Source: a virus
Strand: one strand, 5' to 3'
Length of the DNA: 22,489 nt
Virus record (IMG/VR): IMGVR_UViG_3300034190_002138
Location: 1 to 22,489 of that record
Shown: positions 7,496 to 22,435 of the stretch, piece by piece
How positions within the stretch are numbered: position 1 is the stretch's first letter
Layout: every line of letters starts with the position of its first letter
The notes under the pieces: model-generated
The model's database searches: none
What the model saw: only the letters and a program-made list of their open reading frames with translations
What the model was told of the DNA's origin: nothing
Made by a program: the position numbers and the translations under genes

Positions 7496-7555
7496 CTAGG
7501 TAAGTCCGTAAGCCACTGTTGTTTGCTTGGGGATATAGTTAGTGCAGGTATCCAT
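7496..7555 (-). CDS. Possible 19-residue leader peptide
   Basis: ATG to TAG, encoding MDTCTNYIPKQTTVAYGLT. Its ATG falls in the loop of the leader hairpin (7539-7575) and it ends 6 bases before the next small ORF. A GTAGAG motif abuts the ATG too closely to be a good ribosome binding site. Most likely incidental; listed because the leader is otherwise unexplained. Confidence 0.15.
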   Translation of the reverse strand: MDTCTNYIPKQTTVAYGLT

Positions 7556-7575
7556 CTCTACAGGGGCTGCACTAA
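7539..7575 (-). promoter_or_regulatory. Hairpin at the 5' end of the capsid transcript
   Basis: Perfect 9-bp arms (TTAGTGCAG and CTGCACTAA on the minus strand) flank a 19-base loop. The hairpin begins about 10 bases after the predicted transcription start, a position where stem-loops often stabilise phage mRNAs. Confidence 0.6.
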
Positions 7576-7590
7576 ACTACAATACATATA

Positions 7591-7618
7591 GTTATAACAT
7601 AAATAACTATAATGTCAA
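7591..7618 (-). promoter_or_regulatory. Sigma70-like promoter for the capsid gene
   Basis: On the minus strand a perfect -35 box TTGACA (7618-7613) is followed after 16 bases by -10 TATAAC (7596-7591). It begins just after the scaffold stop codon. The -10 lies within TATGTTATAACTATAT, a 16-base stretch also present at the promoter near 18440. The spacer and -10 form an inverted repeat (9-bp arms at 7587-7595 and 7603-7611). Such a promoter would use host RNA polymerase with its main sigma factor. Confidence 0.75.
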
Positions 7619-12902: not shown

Positions 12903-14474
12903 TTAATAACCAAATGTTGTATCTGCTACTTGCATACCCATTGACGTAGTTCCATATGGGTCATAATCAAATATACTAAATCTTGGTCTTGACATTATAC
13001 CATATCTTAACGCATCATACAAGTGGTCTTCTGCATTGGTATCTACGTCTTCTGGATTTTTTTTATCCAAAGGTATTGCAGGTAATTGTGATATTGTTTC
13101 TACACATGTATTAAAAAATACTAATCTGGGATTTTCTGTAAATTCATCTATTTGTAAACGTCTATGTATTTCATTTTTACCTGCAACACGAGAACCTTTT
13201 GATCTATCTGAAGGACGCCATCTACATCCTCTAGTTATCATTTGCTCCGCAAGGCTTGGACCTGTATCGCCACGTTTATGCCATAAAGAGCTATCCAATA
13301 CTCCATATTTAATATTTCCGTCCTGTGCTTCTAGATCAAGAACCATATCAGCTAAATCTGTAGCTAATACTTTACTAACATATAGTTCTCTATATATTAT
13401 AATTTGCTCGTCAGGTGCAACAGCAAACCACAAAACAGCACTATAAGAACCATATCCATAATCACACGCTCTAAACTTAACCCAGTTATTTGGTATTTTA
13501 AATGGTTCTACTACATGTATATTTCTATCAAACTCTGTAAAAGCTGCACCTTCTTTTATATCCCAGTCACCCTCTAATAGTTGTCTACGTTGTTGTTCTG
13601 GCAGTGACAATAGCATTGCTTCATAGTCACCTTGTGTAGCCAAGTATGGGTTGTCAGATAGTCGTGCAGGTATAAACCTACGTTTAAATAATGCCTTACC
13701 TGCTTTCTCGTGACCTGCAGGATATTTAAGAACTTCTCCTGTTTCTAAGTCTCGTGCTTCAAATGCTTTACCTGCAGGTGCAGGATCAATAAACATTTTC
13801 TTTACCCAGTGATGTCCTCTACCTCCTGGGTTAGTGGTAGCTCTCATATACACTGGTAAATCGGGTGCAGTGGACCGTAGACGAGAGCGCATGTAGTTCC
13901 ATGCGAATGGTGAGGGCCATTGAGTCAACTCGTCAAAGCCTATCCAACTAAACGCTAGACCTTGGTAGCGCAGGACATCATCTTCCCTGTCTAGGTAGGA
14001 CATCCACAACCTCGCTCCAGAGGGCGCAGTCCACTGCATCTTTCGTTCAGACCACTTAATACCCTTCCAAATTTTAGGGTACATTTCCTGTGATTTAAAT
14101 ATAAGCTCTCTAAGTTCTTCTGTTGTATGTCGTAGTAGTAAGCCTGAAAAATCAGGATGACCCATGTATCTCAAAGGGTCTGCTAACATTGCATAACTTT
14201 TACCACCACCTGCAGAGCCACCATATAAAACCTCTCGTTCACCTGCAGCTAAAAAATCTGTCTGTGGACCTTCATTAGGTTTGAAAATAACGTTATGTTG
14301 TTCCTCAACAGGAATCTCCTCAACGATATTAACTGGCTTTGGGGTAGCTTTCTTCTTCGTAGGCTTTCGCACCGAGGCGTTTGTTTTCAATTTCTTCCGC
14401 TTTGGCGATTGCCTTTTTCGCATAGTCTGCCCATCTGCGTAGGCTTCCAACTTTGTTTTTTCTTCTTCGCTCAT
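12903..14474 (-). CDS. terL: Terminase large subunit (ATPase and nuclease)
   Basis: A 523-residue DNA packaging motor. Residues about 1-60 are a Lys-rich low-complexity arm. The ATPase domain shows Walker A GGSAGGGKS at about 85-93, Walker B with acidic pair SWIGFDE at 176-182, and motif III-like ATTNPGG at 212-218. The C-terminal RNase H-like nuclease shows Asp-bearing segments RACDYG (338), GVLDSS (394) and EDHLYDALRY (483/487). Both halves look intact. The first 146 bases overlap the preceding HTH-like gene in a different frame. The start has only a weak GGTTGG motif; the ATG for residue 18 is an alternative. Confidence 0.95.
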   Translation of the reverse strand: MSEEEKTKLEAYADGQTMRKRQSPKRKKLKTNASVRKPTKKKATPKPVNIVEEIPVEEQHNVIFKPNEGPQTDFLAAGEREVLYGGSAGGGKSYAMLADPLRYMGHPDFSGLLLRHTTEELRELIFKSQEMYPKIWKGIKWSERKMQWTAPSGARLWMSYLDREDDVLRYQGLAFSWIGFDELTQWPSPFAWNYMRSRLRSTAPDLPVYMRATTNPGGRGHHWVKKMFIDPAPAGKAFEARDLETGEVLKYPAGHEKAGKALFKRRFIPARLSDNPYLATQGDYEAMLLSLPEQQRRQLLEGDWDIKEGAAFTEFDRNIHVVEPFKIPNNWVKFRACDYGYGSYSAVLWFAVAPDEQIIIYRELYVSKVLATDLADMVLDLEAQDGNIKYGVLDSSLWHKRGDTGPSLAEQMITRGCRWRPSDRSKGSRVAGKNEIHRRLQIDEFTENPRLVFFNTCVETISQLPAIPLDKKNPEDVDTNAEDHLYDALRYGIMSRPRFSIFDYDPYGTTSMGMQVADTTFGY

Positions 14475-14760
14475 TGTCCAACCGTTTCTTGAGTCCTACG
14501 TGAGATATAGATCGACCTGTATTTCTAGATAGCCAATTGGCAACCTCACGATATGAATACTGTTTTAGATATTTCTTTGCCTCTTCAAGCATGTCAAGTT
14601 CGTGCTCAACAGGCTGAAGTATATCAGGATCGTCCTTATCTATTTCATATCCGAATGGTATTGTTCTTGATATACGTGGAATAGCAATCCATTCGTTGTC
14701 TTCTTTTATGTCGGTTGGTTGGGGTAACTTCCACTTTTGTAGAGGTTTAGTCATCGTCAT
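14329..14760 (-). CDS. HTH-like DNA-binding protein between terminase subunits
   Basis: A 143-residue basic protein. Residues about 67-95 (YSYREVANWLSRNTGRSISHVGL) match the pattern of a recombinase/resolvase-type helix-turn-helix, followed by a basic KKRLDNERRRKNK and a helical Lys/Ala/Glu-rich tail. It overlaps the small terminase stop by 14 bases and the large terminase start by 146 bases. In this position it may help recognise packaging DNA or act as a second small-terminase-like factor; that role is inference. The ATG at 14754 is an alternative start. Confidence 0.75.
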   Translation of the reverse strand: MTMTKPLQKWKLPQPTDIKEDNEWIAIPRISRTIPFGYEIDKDDPDILQPVEHELDMLEEAKKYLKQYSYREVANWLSRNTGRSISHVGLKKRLDNERRRKNKVGSLRRWADYAKKAIAKAEEIENKRLGAKAYEEESYPKAS

Positions 14761-15118
14761 CCATTTGTTTAGGTGGCATTAGCATTACACCACCTTTTGC
14801 TTCTACTTGCATCTTTTCTGTTTTAACTAGACCTGTACGATCAAGTAGTTCTTTGGCAGCTTGCATCTTATCACGAATACCTAACTCTGTAGGATCGTAC
14901 AATGCACCCACCATAGACATTGCAGCTTTTGGTGCATTACGTGCCATGTAAGTCTGCGTTGCATCTAGTATTTCTTCTTTAAGAGACTTTACCACTTCAG
15001 CAGATGATGTAGCATCTGAGTATCCTGCAAGTTTCTTTGCAGTCACAATGTCTCCACCTGCTTCATCAAACAGTACAGCCAATAGCTTTTGTTGTTTTTC
15101 TGTTAGTGCTCTTGTCAT
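14747..15118 (-). CDS. terS: Terminase small subunit-like protein
   Basis: A 123-residue, mostly helical protein. The N-terminal EKQQKLLAVLFDEAGGDIVTAKKLAGYS region fits a helix-turn-helix DNA-recognition domain (shown here in fragments: EKQQKLLAVLF, AKKLAGYSDAT). The RDKMQAAKELLDRTGLVK motif is typical of phage small terminases, followed by a flexible tail ending in four Asp. It would recognise viral DNA and regulate the large subunit. Its ATG overlaps the preceding spanin-like gene stop (ATGA), with GGAAG 9 bases upstream. Confidence 0.78.
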   Translation of the reverse strand: MTRALTEKQQKLLAVLFDEAGGDIVTAKKLAGYSDATSSAEVVKSLKEEILDATQTYMARNAPKAAMSMVGALYDPTELGIRDKMQAAKELLDRTGLVKTEKMQVEAKGGVMLMPPKQMDDDD

Positions 15119-15468
15119 AGTTTTGATCTTCCAAATAATAATAAGACAAAGTTAAGTATACCTCTGCCCATTTCTGTAGGTGTTGGTAATAACCATCCTA
15201 ATAACAACAGGATCATTACCCAAGGTGGTATATTTTGAATGTTTAATTTTTCAACCATACCTGTTTCTACTTCTTTTAAAACTTCTGTAGTTATTACGTC
15301 TCTACCTGCTGTAGTTTCTTGAGTTTCTTCATAACTTACAGCAGACTGTCTATTCTCTGCACCTATTTGTGCATTAGAATTTACTGTAGGCCCTTCTGAT
15401 CCTCCTAGCGGAAGCAGAGTACTCAAACCACAACCAGATAAAAATAGAACGAGTATTAACCATCGCAT
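15115..15468 (-). CDS. Spanin-like lipoprotein with C-terminal membrane segment
   Basis: A 117-residue protein. The N-terminus MRWLILVLFLSGC is a lipoprotein signal with a textbook lipobox (LSGC, lipidated Cys13). The middle is a polar, Thr/Glu-rich periplasmic stretch. The C-terminus carries hydrophobic segments (VMILLLLGWLLP at about 83-94 and ILNFVLLLFG at about 104-113). An outer-membrane lipid anchor plus an inner-membrane segment in one chain is the architecture of unimolecular spanins (as in phage T1 gp11), which disrupt the outer membrane in the last step of lysis. It is two genes downstream of the endolysin and overlaps both neighbours. No sequence match is claimed. Confidence 0.65.
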   Translation of the reverse strand: MRWLILVLFLSGCGLSTLLPLGGSEGPTVNSNAQIGAENRQSAVSYEETQETTAGRDVITTEVLKEVETGMVEKLNIQNIPPWVMILLLLGWLLPTPTEMGRGILNFVLLLFGRSKL

Positions 15469-15798: not shown

Positions 15799-16101
15799 TT
15801 AACTCTTTTCTTTTTTACTTTGATGTTTCTTTTTTAATTCAGCTTTTGCTCGTTTAAATAAATTAGCTATTGCAGTTTTACCCATAACTTTAGCACGTTG
15901 TTCAGCAACTGTTAAGATTTGTATTTTTCTAGCGTATGGTTTATTTATTCTTTTTACTTTAGCTATAGTAGCTTTTGCATCTGCTATGGTAGCAAATTTT
16001 ATAGATACAGTATCTTTAGGATTTTCATCTGTATATAGTCTACGCCCAGACCCTTTAGGTTTTTTACCTGTTCCTACTTTAGGGTCTTTTTGTTTTACCA
16101 T
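15799..16101 (-). CDS. Conserved basic marine-phage protein (YTDENPKDTVSIKF family)
   Basis: A 100-residue, strongly basic protein. The N-terminal half has KDPKVGTGKKPKGSGRRLY followed by TDENPKDTVSIKFAT, a signature I recall from many marine phage hypothetical proteins. The C-terminal half is helical with a Lys-rich end. Function is unknown; charge suggests nucleic-acid or virion association. It starts by TAATG overlap with the endolysin gene. A decayed second copy of its 3' half lies near 20663-20762, about 4.8 kb away, so the family was once present twice in this genome. Confidence 0.75.
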   Translation of the reverse strand: MVKQKDPKVGTGKKPKGSGRRLYTDENPKDTVSIKFATIADAKATIAKVKRINKPYARKIQILTVAEQRAKVMGKTAIANLFKRAKAELKKKHQSKKEKS

Positions 16102-16568
16102 TACATTAACTCAAAATGTGGTGCATCAATAAATGGTCTACGTCCTTGTGATCTACGTAAATCTACATATGCCATCATAGCATCTTCTGATGTACCTTCA
16201 TATGTACGAATGTCACCTTCGCTCCATGCTGCACCCCATTTGATAGCGCAGCCTACTTCTTCGGCTGCTTGTTTAAAGGCATCGCATATATCGTCATAAA
16301 GATTTAGTTCCCATGATACATCTGGACCTACATATGCTACTACGTCTACAGCATGACTAAATCCATCGTCTTGTAATAAATGTTTACTTGCCATTGTTTG
16401 TGATCGTCCTGCAGCTACATTAGCTTTCTGTTCTTCTAAAGTACGCACACCTTGTGTAACTCCAAAGTCTACCTCTGTCAGTTGAATAGCTCGTTCAACT
16501 ACTGCTGTCATATCTGGATGAACACCCTCAAGTCTATCTATTGATCTTTGGCTTAGTCTAAAACTCAT
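16101..16568 (-). CDS. Endolysin, M15 L-alanyl-D-glutamate peptidase type
   Basis: A 155-residue single-domain enzyme with the layout of the phage T5 endolysin. The N-terminus MSFRLSQRSIDRLEGVHPDM is followed by FGVTQGVRTLEEQ (about 35-47). A zinc-binding zone SKHLLQDDGFSHAVDVVAY (61-79) offers His63, His72 and Asp75, then RPFIDAPHFEL (145-154) provides the final His151. It should cut peptide cross-bridges of Gram-negative peptidoglycan. The spacing between the first His and Asp is 5 residues longer than in T5, so His72 may be a ligand or His63 may be displaced by a loop. No signal peptide is present, so a holin is needed. Confidence 0.88.
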   Translation of the reverse strand: MSFRLSQRSIDRLEGVHPDMTAVVERAIQLTEVDFGVTQGVRTLEEQKANVAAGRSQTMASKHLLQDDGFSHAVDVVAYVGPDVSWELNLYDDICDAFKQAAEEVGCAIKWGAAWSEGDIRTYEGTSEDAMMAYVDLRRSQGRRPFIDAPHFELM

Positions 16569-17991: not shown

Positions 17992-18228
17992 CTAATTTCT
18001 ATAGCCACCACCTTTGGCTTTGTATTGTTTTGCAAGCATTTGAGCTTTACGTGCAGACCATTGACCTGCACCACCACCCTTAGTTCCTGCTTTTATCTTA
18101 TTAAAAAGATTTTTACGCATAGTAGGTTTAGTATAGTTACCTGCTTTATTAACTGTACTTTTACCACCTTTAGACATTTTTAGTGGTTTAGCTTTATGCT
18201 TAGTAGCGGTTTGCTTCTTTATAGCCAT
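17992..18228 (-). CDS. Small basic conserved protein (GQWSARKAQ motif)
   Basis: A 78-residue, very Lys-rich protein. An N-terminal basic stretch is followed by GGKSTVNKAGNYTKPTMRK, an IKAGTKGGGAGQWSARKAQ motif and a Gly-rich end (AKGGGYRN). The GQWSARKAQ core is a pattern I recall from phages and large eukaryotic DNA viruses, where it has no known function. Its start overlaps the 3' end of the DUF1127 gene by 29 bases, so the two are probably co-translated. Likely a nucleic-acid-associated or virion protein, by charge only. Confidence 0.75.
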   Translation of the reverse strand: MAIKKQTATKHKAKPLKMSKGGKSTVNKAGNYTKPTMRKNLFNKIKAGTKGGGAGQWSARKAQMLAKQYKAKGGGYRN

Positions 18229-18376
18229 ATCTTAAAACTCTTTCTATGTCATAGCGACCTATGCCTATATCTTTTAATTCCGCATCAGTCATGCTATATA
18301 ATTGCTCACGTGCAATTCTTTTTTTTGCAGATTCAATTCTAGCTTCTACTAATCTATTAAATAATTTTTTTAACAT
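18200..18376 (-). CDS. DUF1127 small protein
   Basis: A 58-residue protein, MLKKLFNRLVEARIES onward, with the DUF1127 (YjiS-like, PF06568) core: SMTDAELKDIGIGRYDIERV at about residues 28-47, then an Arg/Tyr-rich end. The pattern L/M-(S/T)D-x-EL-x-DIG-(I/L)-x-R-x-DI is diagnostic. DUF1127 proteins abound in alphaproteobacteria and gammaproteobacteria, and some bind RNA and affect its turnover or phosphate metabolism. AGGAG sits 7 bases before the ATG. It is the first gene after a sigma70-like promoter, and its ribosome binding site lies in a predicted hairpin. It overlaps the next gene by 29 bases. A host-derived RNA-level regulator is a reasonable inference. Confidence 0.85.
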   Translation of the reverse strand: MLKKLFNRLVEARIESAKKRIAREQLYSMTDAELKDIGIGRYDIERVLRYGYKEANRY

Positions 18377-18379
18377 AAT

Positions 18380-18420
18380 CTATCTCCTGTGTTAACGGTA
18401 ACTTTAGCTACCAGAGATAG
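18380..18420 (-). promoter_or_regulatory. Hairpin sequestering the DUF1127 ribosome binding site
   Basis: On the minus strand CTATCTC (18420-18414) pairs perfectly with GAGATAG (18386-18380), which contains most of the AGGAGA ribosome binding site. The 27-base interior can form a smaller GGTA/TACC hairpin. The stem starts within about 10 bases of the predicted transcript start. It may shut off translation until opened, or simply stabilise the 5' end. Confidence 0.55.
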
Positions 18421-18434
18421 TTATATCATATATA

Positions 18435-18463
18435 GTTATAACATACCACAGACAAAAATGCAA
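18435..18463 (-). promoter_or_regulatory. Sigma70-like promoter upstream of DUF1127
   Basis: On the minus strand a -35 box TTGCAT (18463-18458) is followed after 17 bases by -10 TATAAC (18440-18435). The -10 region TATGTTATAACTATAT is identical to that of the capsid promoter. A 9-base direct repeat (ATAGTTATA on the plus strand) at 18417-18425 and 18432-18440 overlaps the -10 and start site and could bind a regulator. It lies in one of the two largest gaps of the window. Confidence 0.7.
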
Positions 18464-18468
18464 CCCTG

Positions 18469-21291: not shown

Positions 21292-22001
21292 GGTCTACCC
21301 ATTATACCACCAGTTTGATCTGGTCCTGTGTCTATCATATTACGTTCCATAATACTAATAGCTCTATCTTGCTTTTGTGTTTGTGATAATTGTTTTAGTT
21401 TAGCAAGGTTTTCTTTTGCGTCTTTAGAAAGTCTTTCTCGTGCTTCCATATTACGAACTACTGCCTGTATTTGATTATCTGTAGGATTACCTACAATCTC
21501 ACCGTCCTTTGTAATACCATTATCTGTATTACCTATTAACATGTCACTATCTTTTAATTTAGGTTTAGAGCCTACACGTTTTATACCTTCCTCTGTCATA
21601 AGGCTTACACCTTCACTTTTACGTGCATCAGAACTACGTGTGACTGCTGCTTTTCTTGTACGAGATACATCTGCCTCTTCTGACATTGCATTAAGTTTAT
21701 CTAGTAACTCTTGTTCTTTTTTTGTAATTGTACCTTTTTCTTCTTTAGTTTCTAGTATAGATACAAGTTCAGCACGTGCTCTAGAACCTGCTGATGCAGA
21801 CTCTTGCATCCTTGGTTCACTCAGATCACCTCTAGTTACTGTACCTGCTTTACCTTCCTCTACGTCAAGTGTACCACGAGAGGGTGCTTGCCCTTCGTCT
21901 AGTTGACTTACAAACTTATCTGCAAATAGTTTTTGTGTGCCTTCTTTAACTTCGTCTGTAACTTCTTTAATTTTTCTAAGGCTTCTTAATGCTTTTACCA
22001 T
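21288..22001 (-). CDS. Charged coiled-coil unknown protein
   Basis: A 237-residue hydrophilic, helix-rich protein starting MVKALRSLRKIKEVTDEV. The ATG at 22001 overlaps the preceding stop by one base (TAATG) and has GGAG 6 bases upstream; a TTG at 22013 is less likely. It contains long Glu/Lys/Arg stretches (ELVSILETKEEKGTITKKEQ; VVRNMEARERLSKDAKENLA) and a Gly/Asn-rich segment (IGNTDNGITKDGEIVGNPTD). No enzyme motif or membrane segment is seen. A virion-internal or assembly protein is possible, but position far from the head genes gives no firm clue. Confidence 0.68.
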   Translation of the reverse strand: MVKALRSLRKIKEVTDEVKEGTQKLFADKFVSQLDEGQAPSRGTLDVEEGKAGTVTRGDLSEPRMQESASAGSRARAELVSILETKEEKGTITKKEQELLDKLNAMSEEADVSRTRKAAVTRSSDARKSEGVSLMTEEGIKRVGSKPKLKDSDMLIGNTDNGITKDGEIVGNPTDNQIQAVVRNMEARERLSKDAKENLAKLKQLSQTQKQDRAISIMERNMIDTGPDQTGGIMGRP

Positions 22002-22291
22002 TAACATCTCCAACGTTTACGTGCTTGACGTAATCTTGAATTAGGGTCTTTAGCTGCTTTAGGAAACTTCTTCATCTGCCCTGCACTTCTAGCACAAAAA
22101 GACTTTCGTCTTGCTTTTTCTGATTTAGTTAAACCTTTTTTCTTAGTAACAGCAGTTTTTAGTTTTGATCCTGGGTTATCTCTACGGTACTTAGCTACAC
22201 CTTTAGCTGTCATACCTGCTCCCTTTTTAGTGGGGCGTTTATGACCACCTTTAATGGTGTGTCCTTTCATTGAGCCTTTTTTCTCAGCCAT
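22001..22291 (-). CDS. Basic conserved protein with KSFCARSAGQM motif
   Basis: A 96-residue Lys/Arg-rich protein starting MAEKKGSMKGHTIKGGHKRP. It has GMTAKGVAKYRRDNPGSKLK, RRKSFCARSAGQMKKFPKAA and a terminal RQARKRWRC. The RRKSFCAR-x-x-GQM block is, from memory, a widespread small-protein signature in phages (DUF6321-like; name not certain). Two Cys may bind a metal. An upstream in-frame ATG at 22321 would add 10 residues but lacks a ribosome binding site; GAGG lies 8 bases before 22291, within a repeated segment. Its stop overlaps the next gene's ATG. Confidence 0.72.
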   Translation of the reverse strand: MAEKKGSMKGHTIKGGHKRPTKKGAGMTAKGVAKYRRDNPGSKLKTAVTKKKGLTKSEKARRKSFCARSAGQMKKFPKAAKDPNSRLRQARKRWRC

Positions 22292-22435
22292 CAGTCCAAC
22301 CTCACATACACAAGTCTTCATACAAAACTGTATAAAGTCTATGTTTGCTTTTGTCTCTACTGATGCATTTCTTTTTAAACCAAGCTATCATGCTCTATTA
22401 CCTCGTGTCGTTGCCATCAGTCCAACCTTCCATAC
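22287..22435 (-). repeat. Direct repeat pair carrying a ribosome binding site and ATG
   Basis: A 23-base element at 22287-22309 recurs at 22413-22435 with 2 mismatches (first 16 bases identical), 126 bases apart. On the minus strand both copies hold AGGTTGGACTGATGG. In the right copy this codes for EGWTDG of the upstream gene; in the left copy it supplies the start region of the 22001-22291 gene. It suggests partial duplication of the upstream gene's 3' end. Confidence 0.65.
22302..22391 (-). CDS. Possible 29-residue small protein
   Basis: ATG to TGA, encoding MIAWFKKKCISRDKSKHRLY then TVLYEDLCM. GAGG lies 9 bases before the ATG and it fills the gap between the upstream gene end and the 22001-22291 start. 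The basic aromatic start recalls the 31-residue microprotein at 19063-19158. Its stop falls within the repeated element. It could instead be a noncoding gap or a remnant. Confidence 0.4.
   Translation of the reverse strand: MIAWFKKKCISRDKSKHRLYTVLYEDLCM

Follow-up and report, generated by a model that had tools for sequence, protein, structure and literature searches.

In bacteriophage T4, the ribosome-binding site or the start codon of genes e, soc, 49 and I-TevI is covered by an RNA helix, and the late promoters of gene e are placed such that late transcripts lose the 5' strand of the helix and are translated (PMC3014915). Control through the leader has also been described for a host DUF1127 gene, that of Sinorhizobium meliloti, which is subject to attenuation through a uORF (PMC12218461). 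Among the DUF1127 proteins themselves, CcaF1 of Rhodobacter sphaeroides binds RNA, acts together with RNase E and, when overexpressed, strongly impedes growth under microaerobic conditions (PMC10253847). The DUF1127 proteins of Agrobacterium tumefaciens and Escherichia coli (YjiS) bind the sensor kinase PhoR, and those of other Proteobacteria complement, including CcaF1, which complements an Agrobacterium mutant in a PhoR-related role; on average, arginine makes up about 14% of DUF1127 proteins (PMC12501420). Salmonella YjiS is membrane-associated, and no association with RNA was seen (PMC11707872). A literature search of limited scope returned no study on phage DUF1127 genes; in the HMO-2011 genome survey, the domain goes unmentioned in the main text.

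We describe here a phage DUF1127 gene whose leader resembles that of T4 gene e. The Shine-Dalgarno sequence is predicted to lie within a hairpin, a putative promoter box sits in, or adjoins, the 5' strand of this hairpin, the leader is located at lysis-related genes, and two boxes are present in some lineages. Unlike in T4, where the box is TATAAATA, the box of the DUF1127 leader is TATAAC/T; moreover, the gene is a different one, the phages are unrelated, and the short and long transcripts are predicted from sequence. With the DUF1127 gene of S. meliloti, the phage gene would share control by its own mRNA leader, but S. meliloti employs a translated uORF and probably Rho, whereas the phage leader is short, with a predicted hairpin directly over the Shine-Dalgarno sequence. 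We suggest, with a probability of about 0.55 from sequence comparison, that this leader acts as a translation switch and that the protein, made late in infection, acts on a host target. The hairpin, which was absent from the preliminary description of this DNA, is the most informative feature of the locus.

The window (the whole stretch of 22,489 nt that was analysed) is a 22.5-kb viral contig fragment. Its minus strand encodes, in this order, the DUF1127 protein, small proteins, an endolysin, an Rz-like spanin, the terminase small subunit (TerS), the terminase large subunit (TerL), portal, capsid and adaptor (Table 1). A DUF6321 protein is encoded in the same gene run (22001-22321, minus strand; 52.8 bits). 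The window TerL is about 88-90% identical to those of CRP-1 and CRP-345 (87.6% for CRP-1 by tblastn), and the TerL tree places it within a clade with CRP-1, CRP-345 and HMO-2011 (support 99/97). Judged by its TerL, the window comes from part of the genome of an HMO-2011-type phage whose host is probably a Roseobacter. The DUF1127 gene had been placed at the head of a late phage operon; a same-strand run into lysis and packaging genes is indeed present, and "late" is read from gene content alone. The Rfam search returned no credible match in the window, its two low-scoring snoRNA matches lying far from the gene and being taken as chance.

The DUF1127 gene had been proposed with no strand named. 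Translated on the minus strand, 18200-18376 is an uninterrupted ORF of 58 codons (MLKKLFNRLVEARIESAKKRIAREQLYSMTDAELKDIGIGRYDIERVLRYGYKEANRY); on the plus strand the same interval has stops in frame and no coding ORF. The profile search confirmed the family assignment, with 30.0 bits against PF06568 (E = 4.4e-7; residues 20-45 on model positions 12-37), the curated gathering cut-off of Pfam being 23.3 bits. A six-frame search of the whole record also returned a DUF1127 match (29.7 bits), and 18 phage records and 12 viral contigs likewise score above the cut-off. In the alignment of homologues, the window protein shows the family core L-T/S-D-x-x-L-x-D-I/L-G-I-x-R, and columns L26, L34, D36, G38, R41 and I44 are without variation. 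Arginine accounts for 8 of its 58 residues (13.8%). Relatives are encoded at 51 IMG/VR loci, at identities from 100% down to 38%, and the ORF is kept among the homologues. For 35 distinct sequences from 48 homologous loci, median dN is 0.09 and median dS 0.76 (ratio about 0.12), and the variable columns per codon position (27/17/45) reveal changes concentrated at third positions. The gene is under purifying selection. Given the 51 relatives, the low dN/dS and the third-position bias, the ORF does not reflect chance, and we consider it virtually certain that the gene is real.

The preliminary description had also called the gene easily missed, being short and overlapping the next one. The overlap is of 29 nt, and the gene is unannotated in CRP-13 and SIO1 and "hypothetical" in nearly all other relatives, with CRP-603 naming it DUF1127. 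In CRP-13 it lies at about 49332-49490 of MW514247.1, on the minus strand, absent from the annotation of the record. The proteins of CRP-345 and CRP-1 have a conserved C-terminal extension (SWRQYIYSKLGWELHKANHA), which the window protein does not have. An AlphaFold model, computed from an alignment of the window and IMG/VR rows only, reached a mean pLDDT of 75 and a pTM of 0.43, and none of its matches among PDB folds had an E below 4, so that the fold is given no weight here. A SAM-domain identity was considered and rejected: the weak matches to CNK2 (E = 0.002, profile search) and to SAM_TNK (under the Pfam cut-off) are attributed to coincidence or to a helix motif in common. The genome contigs searched contained no close bacterial relative of this protein.

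Table 1. Coordinates of the features of the DUF1127 locus and of the downstream gene run in the window
Feature	Position	Strand	Remarks and evidence
DUF1127 gene	18200..18376	-	58 codons + stop, ATG at 18376; translation, PF06568, dN/dS
Hairpin 3' arm GGAGATAG	18380..18387	-	predicted fold, arm covariation
Shine-Dalgarno AGGAG	18384..18388	-	sequence; within predicted hairpin
Inner stem-loop GGTAGC-TAAA-GTTACC	18397..18412	-	predicted fold
Hairpin 5' arm CTATCTCT	18413..18420	-	starts at last base of TATAAC box; predicted fold, covariation
Proximal -10-like box TATAAC	18420..18425	-	overlaps hairpin 5' arm
Distal -10-like box TATAAC	18435..18440	-	17 nt after TTGCAT; some lineages only
-35-like TTGCAT	18458..18463	-	sequence
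GGGTTGCA element	18459..18466	-	starts about 42 nt before proximal box in most leader types
Next gene	17992..18228	-	78 aa, PHROG 17747; overlaps DUF1127 gene
Endolysin-like gene	16101..16568	-	PHROG 465; same run as DUF1127 gene
Rz-like spanin candidate	15115..15468	-	PHROG 1804, E = 4e-6
TerS candidate	14747..15118	-	same gene run
TerL	12903..14474	-	puts window among HMO-2011-type phages

Whole-genome HMM searches of the Roseobacter isolates in the HMO-2011 group found one DUF1127 gene in every one of them (11/11). The same searches found none in HMO-2011 (SAR116 host), in the pelagiphages HTVC033P and HTVC115P, in a Rhizobium phage or in one environmental genome of unknown host. On the TerL tree HMO-2011 is nested inside the Roseobacter phages, and therefore the gene was probably lost in HMO-2011; the clustering of presence and absence on this tree was not significant, and only the nesting is used here. 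DUF1127 is also encoded by the cobaviruses CRP-4/5/6, SIO1, ICBM1/3 and P12053L, by the roseobacter phages CRP-118, CRP-403 and CRP-7, and by phages of Sinorhizobium, Agrobacterium, Ochrobactrum, Rhizobium and Methylophilales (several of the weaker matches among these come from tblastn alone). Nearly all phages outside the HMO-2011 group with the gene infect Alphaproteobacteria. The order MazG, DUF1127, ribonucleotide reductase is shared by the cobaviruses CRP-4 and CRP-5 and the autographivirus CRP-118, that is, by different phage families; CRP-6 has one extra gene between the DUF1127 gene and ribonucleotide reductase. In SIO1, the unannotated gene (NC_002519.1, 20004-20165) has MazG on one side and ribonucleotide reductase on the other, with phoH downstream. 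Among cellular genomes, 69 of 190 sampled from the class of a Roseobacter-group genome have DUF1127 genes. Those listed as having none are mostly small genomes, and an association with particular groups of hosts is therefore no more than suggested.

By analogy with the host proteins, the phage DUF1127 protein likely has a host-modulating role of some kind, and our best guess is a late host modulator. Made late, it would act on a target that is normally served by the DUF1127 proteins of the host, either RNA turnover, as for CcaF1, or PhoR and phosphate uptake. Both targets are possible, since in core motif and arginine content the phage protein is like the rest of the family. CcaF1 (71 aa) resembles the phage protein in being a small, basic protein with the same domain in an alphaproteobacterial setting. 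It differs in that CcaF1 is followed by the CcsR small RNAs and the phage gene by an overlapping protein gene; downstream of the phage gene no CcsR-like small RNAs were found (next gene, Rfam search of the window). The A. tumefaciens and E. coli PhoR binders also share the domain and an arginine content of about 14%, whereas the phage protein is phage-encoded and its gene heads a lysis-packaging run. The more specific proposal that the phage protein targets PhoR, altering phosphate uptake in late replication, is in our opinion somewhat doubtful. It draws on the PhoR binding and cross-complementation reported for the family (PMC12501420) and, for cobaviruses and SIO1, on the neighbourhood of the gene, which is flanked by MazG and ribonucleotide reductase and has phoH close by. 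However, phosphate uptake is reduced by the DUF1127 proteins in Agrobacterium, whereas a phage might want the reverse.

Upstream of the DUF1127 gene, a gap of 92 nt holds promoter-like boxes. The gene had been described as the first after a promoter and as having a strong AGGAG ribosome-binding site; the latter was found at 18388-18384, seven bases 5' of the ATG, and the former stands as far as matches to promoter consensus sequences go. Among newly collected leaders, TATAAY (TATAAC or TATAAT) is present in 234 of 244, versus 13 of 338 control ORF starts on the same contigs, and in nearly all homologues it lies 30-70 nt before the start codon; some lineages have TAAAAC at the proximal position, not TATAAY. 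In most leader types a GGG..TGCA element stands at a near-fixed distance above this box (Table 1). In these phages TATAAC also follows TTGACA before the capsid gene, in the window at a spacing of 16 nt (7532-7618, minus strand), where a long hairpin lies near the expected RNA start; this second occurrence supports the reading of TATAAC as a -10 element. The stems of the capsid leaders of CRP-345, CRP-1, CRP-9 and CRP-13 differ in sequence, yet lie in the same place and still pair. In the phage sequences searched, the GGG..TGCA-type element is essentially confined to the DUF1127 gene, with one unrelated match in CRP-1, and as a regulon marker it was thus rejected. Nor was this promoter-like element found in relatives without the DUF1127 gene over the stretches searched. 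Outside the HMO-2011 group, CRP-7 has a TATAGT box before its DUF1127 gene (about 840-932 of its locus), and by eye a short arm after this box could pair with the Shine-Dalgarno sequence.

The RNA from the box to the ATG is predicted to fold into a hairpin with the Shine-Dalgarno region as its 3' arm. Predicted leader folds cover the Shine-Dalgarno sequence in the main lineages, with z from -3.2 to -6.8 (-2.7 in CRP-738); those of CRP-2 and CRP-603 gave no clear sequestration. Stems of 8 pairs, including G-U, at single Shine-Dalgarno-like sites are common by chance, and the case for the hairpin therefore rests on covariation. The arms differ between lineages yet pair, with one base gained in both arms in one case: the window has CTATCTC/GAGATAG, other lineages have CTACTCCT/AGGAGTAG and CTATCCTC/GAGGATAG, CRP-3 has ATAATTATCTC/GAGATAATTAT, CRP-212 has ATAATTACCT/AGGTAATTAT and the CRP-235 type has AAACTCTCCTTAGT/ACTAAGGAGAGTTT. 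Since MAFFT did not align the Shine-Dalgarno sequences correctly where indels intervene, we quantified covariation by permuting arms. Arms pair better with their own partners than across lineages, with 0 of 100,000 permutations reaching the observed value in the 15 discovery leaders and again 0 of 100,000 in 30 new leader types, counts that are strong but not exact probabilities, as leader types are mutually related. The new leaders were fetched after the hypothesis had been formed, from IMG/VR DUF1127 loci found with the proteins of four other lineages, and the 30 types remained once leaders close to the first set or to one another had been discarded. The median probability that the Shine-Dalgarno sequence is unpaired is 0.061 in 97 distinct leaders of the second set, some of which resemble discovery leaders, versus 0.564 in 274 control genes of the same contigs. 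With Watson-Crick pairs counted alone, 22 of 67 leader types place the Shine-Dalgarno sequence in a stem of 8 bp or more, versus 6.1% of cross-lineage pairs. Within CRP-1 alone, the DUF1127 gene ranks 13th of 66 by crude Shine-Dalgarno accessibility and first by stability. From these comparisons, it is very likely that the hairpin is under selection for pairing. A terminator was also considered and dropped, there being no T run after the hairpin. In CRP-212 the annotated start of gp47 is probably wrong, an inner ATG having a Shine-Dalgarno GGAGG and a 10-bp sequestering hairpin.

What the pairing is selected for may be timing. RNA reading through from upstream genes would contain both arms, with the Shine-Dalgarno sequence hidden and little protein made, and transcripts from the distal box would likewise carry the whole hairpin. 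From the proximal TATAAY box, RNA would be expected to start inside the 5' arm or directly behind it, and the inner stem-loop would be near the 5' end of the transcript; without the 5' arm, this RNA would be translated into DUF1127 protein. In CRP-235 and CRP-738 arm and box are separate, and RNA started at the box would still be without the arm, since the arm lies upstream. The gene would thus stay silent until its own promoter fires. We infer a timing switch because the layout of box and arm matches that of T4 gene e and because some lineages have a distal box; on the leader sequences and this analogy, a promoter-in-hairpin switch of the T4 type is rather probable.

The hairpin could also be the operator for a protein, possibly the DUF1127 protein itself, repressing or processing its own leader. 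CcaF1 does bind RNA, affects the ccaF1-CcsR transcript and participates, together with RNase E, in processing its own mRNA (PMC10253847), and host DUF1127 genes can have leader control, as in S. meliloti (PMC12218461). However, loop and stem sequences vary by lineage while the pairing is kept, which fits occlusion better than the recognition of a fixed site, and cobavirus DUF1127 genes are without such a leader; we consider such autoregulation unlikely. More improbable still is that the hairpin mainly shields the 5' end of the mRNA from RNase E, with the cover over the Shine-Dalgarno sequence a side effect. In these phages the capsid mRNA, too, has a leader hairpin near its predicted start, but that hairpin does not contain a Shine-Dalgarno sequence, whereas the paired arm of the DUF1127 leader is the Shine-Dalgarno region in lineage after lineage. 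Very improbable is a reading in which the gene came from a host and is simply carried along, doing nothing in particular during infection. DUF1127 is common in alphaproteobacterial genomes and could easily be acquired, but the purifying selection on the phage gene, its presence in every Roseobacter isolate of the group and its own conserved promoter-hairpin leader speak against this.

Returning to the switch, so tight a leader would make sense if the protein modulates the host and its early synthesis must be avoided. We tentatively extend this proposal to the Roseobacter-phage clade as a whole, large and abundant marine phages, which may have a gene e-like switch that arose independently of T4 and a late DUF1127 protein that would retune RNA turnover or phosphate sensing, with gene and leader lost together outside Roseobacter hosts. 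The DUF1127 leader would then offer a testable stage-specific translation switch outside the T4-like phages, a candidate maintained through compensatory changes in ocean viruses of a very abundant group. Small phage genes of this kind go unannotated, as in the early marine phage genome SIO1. The function of the DUF1127 family is itself disputed, between RNA binding and PhoR binding, and phages that keep the gene only in certain hosts may serve as natural probes of that function.
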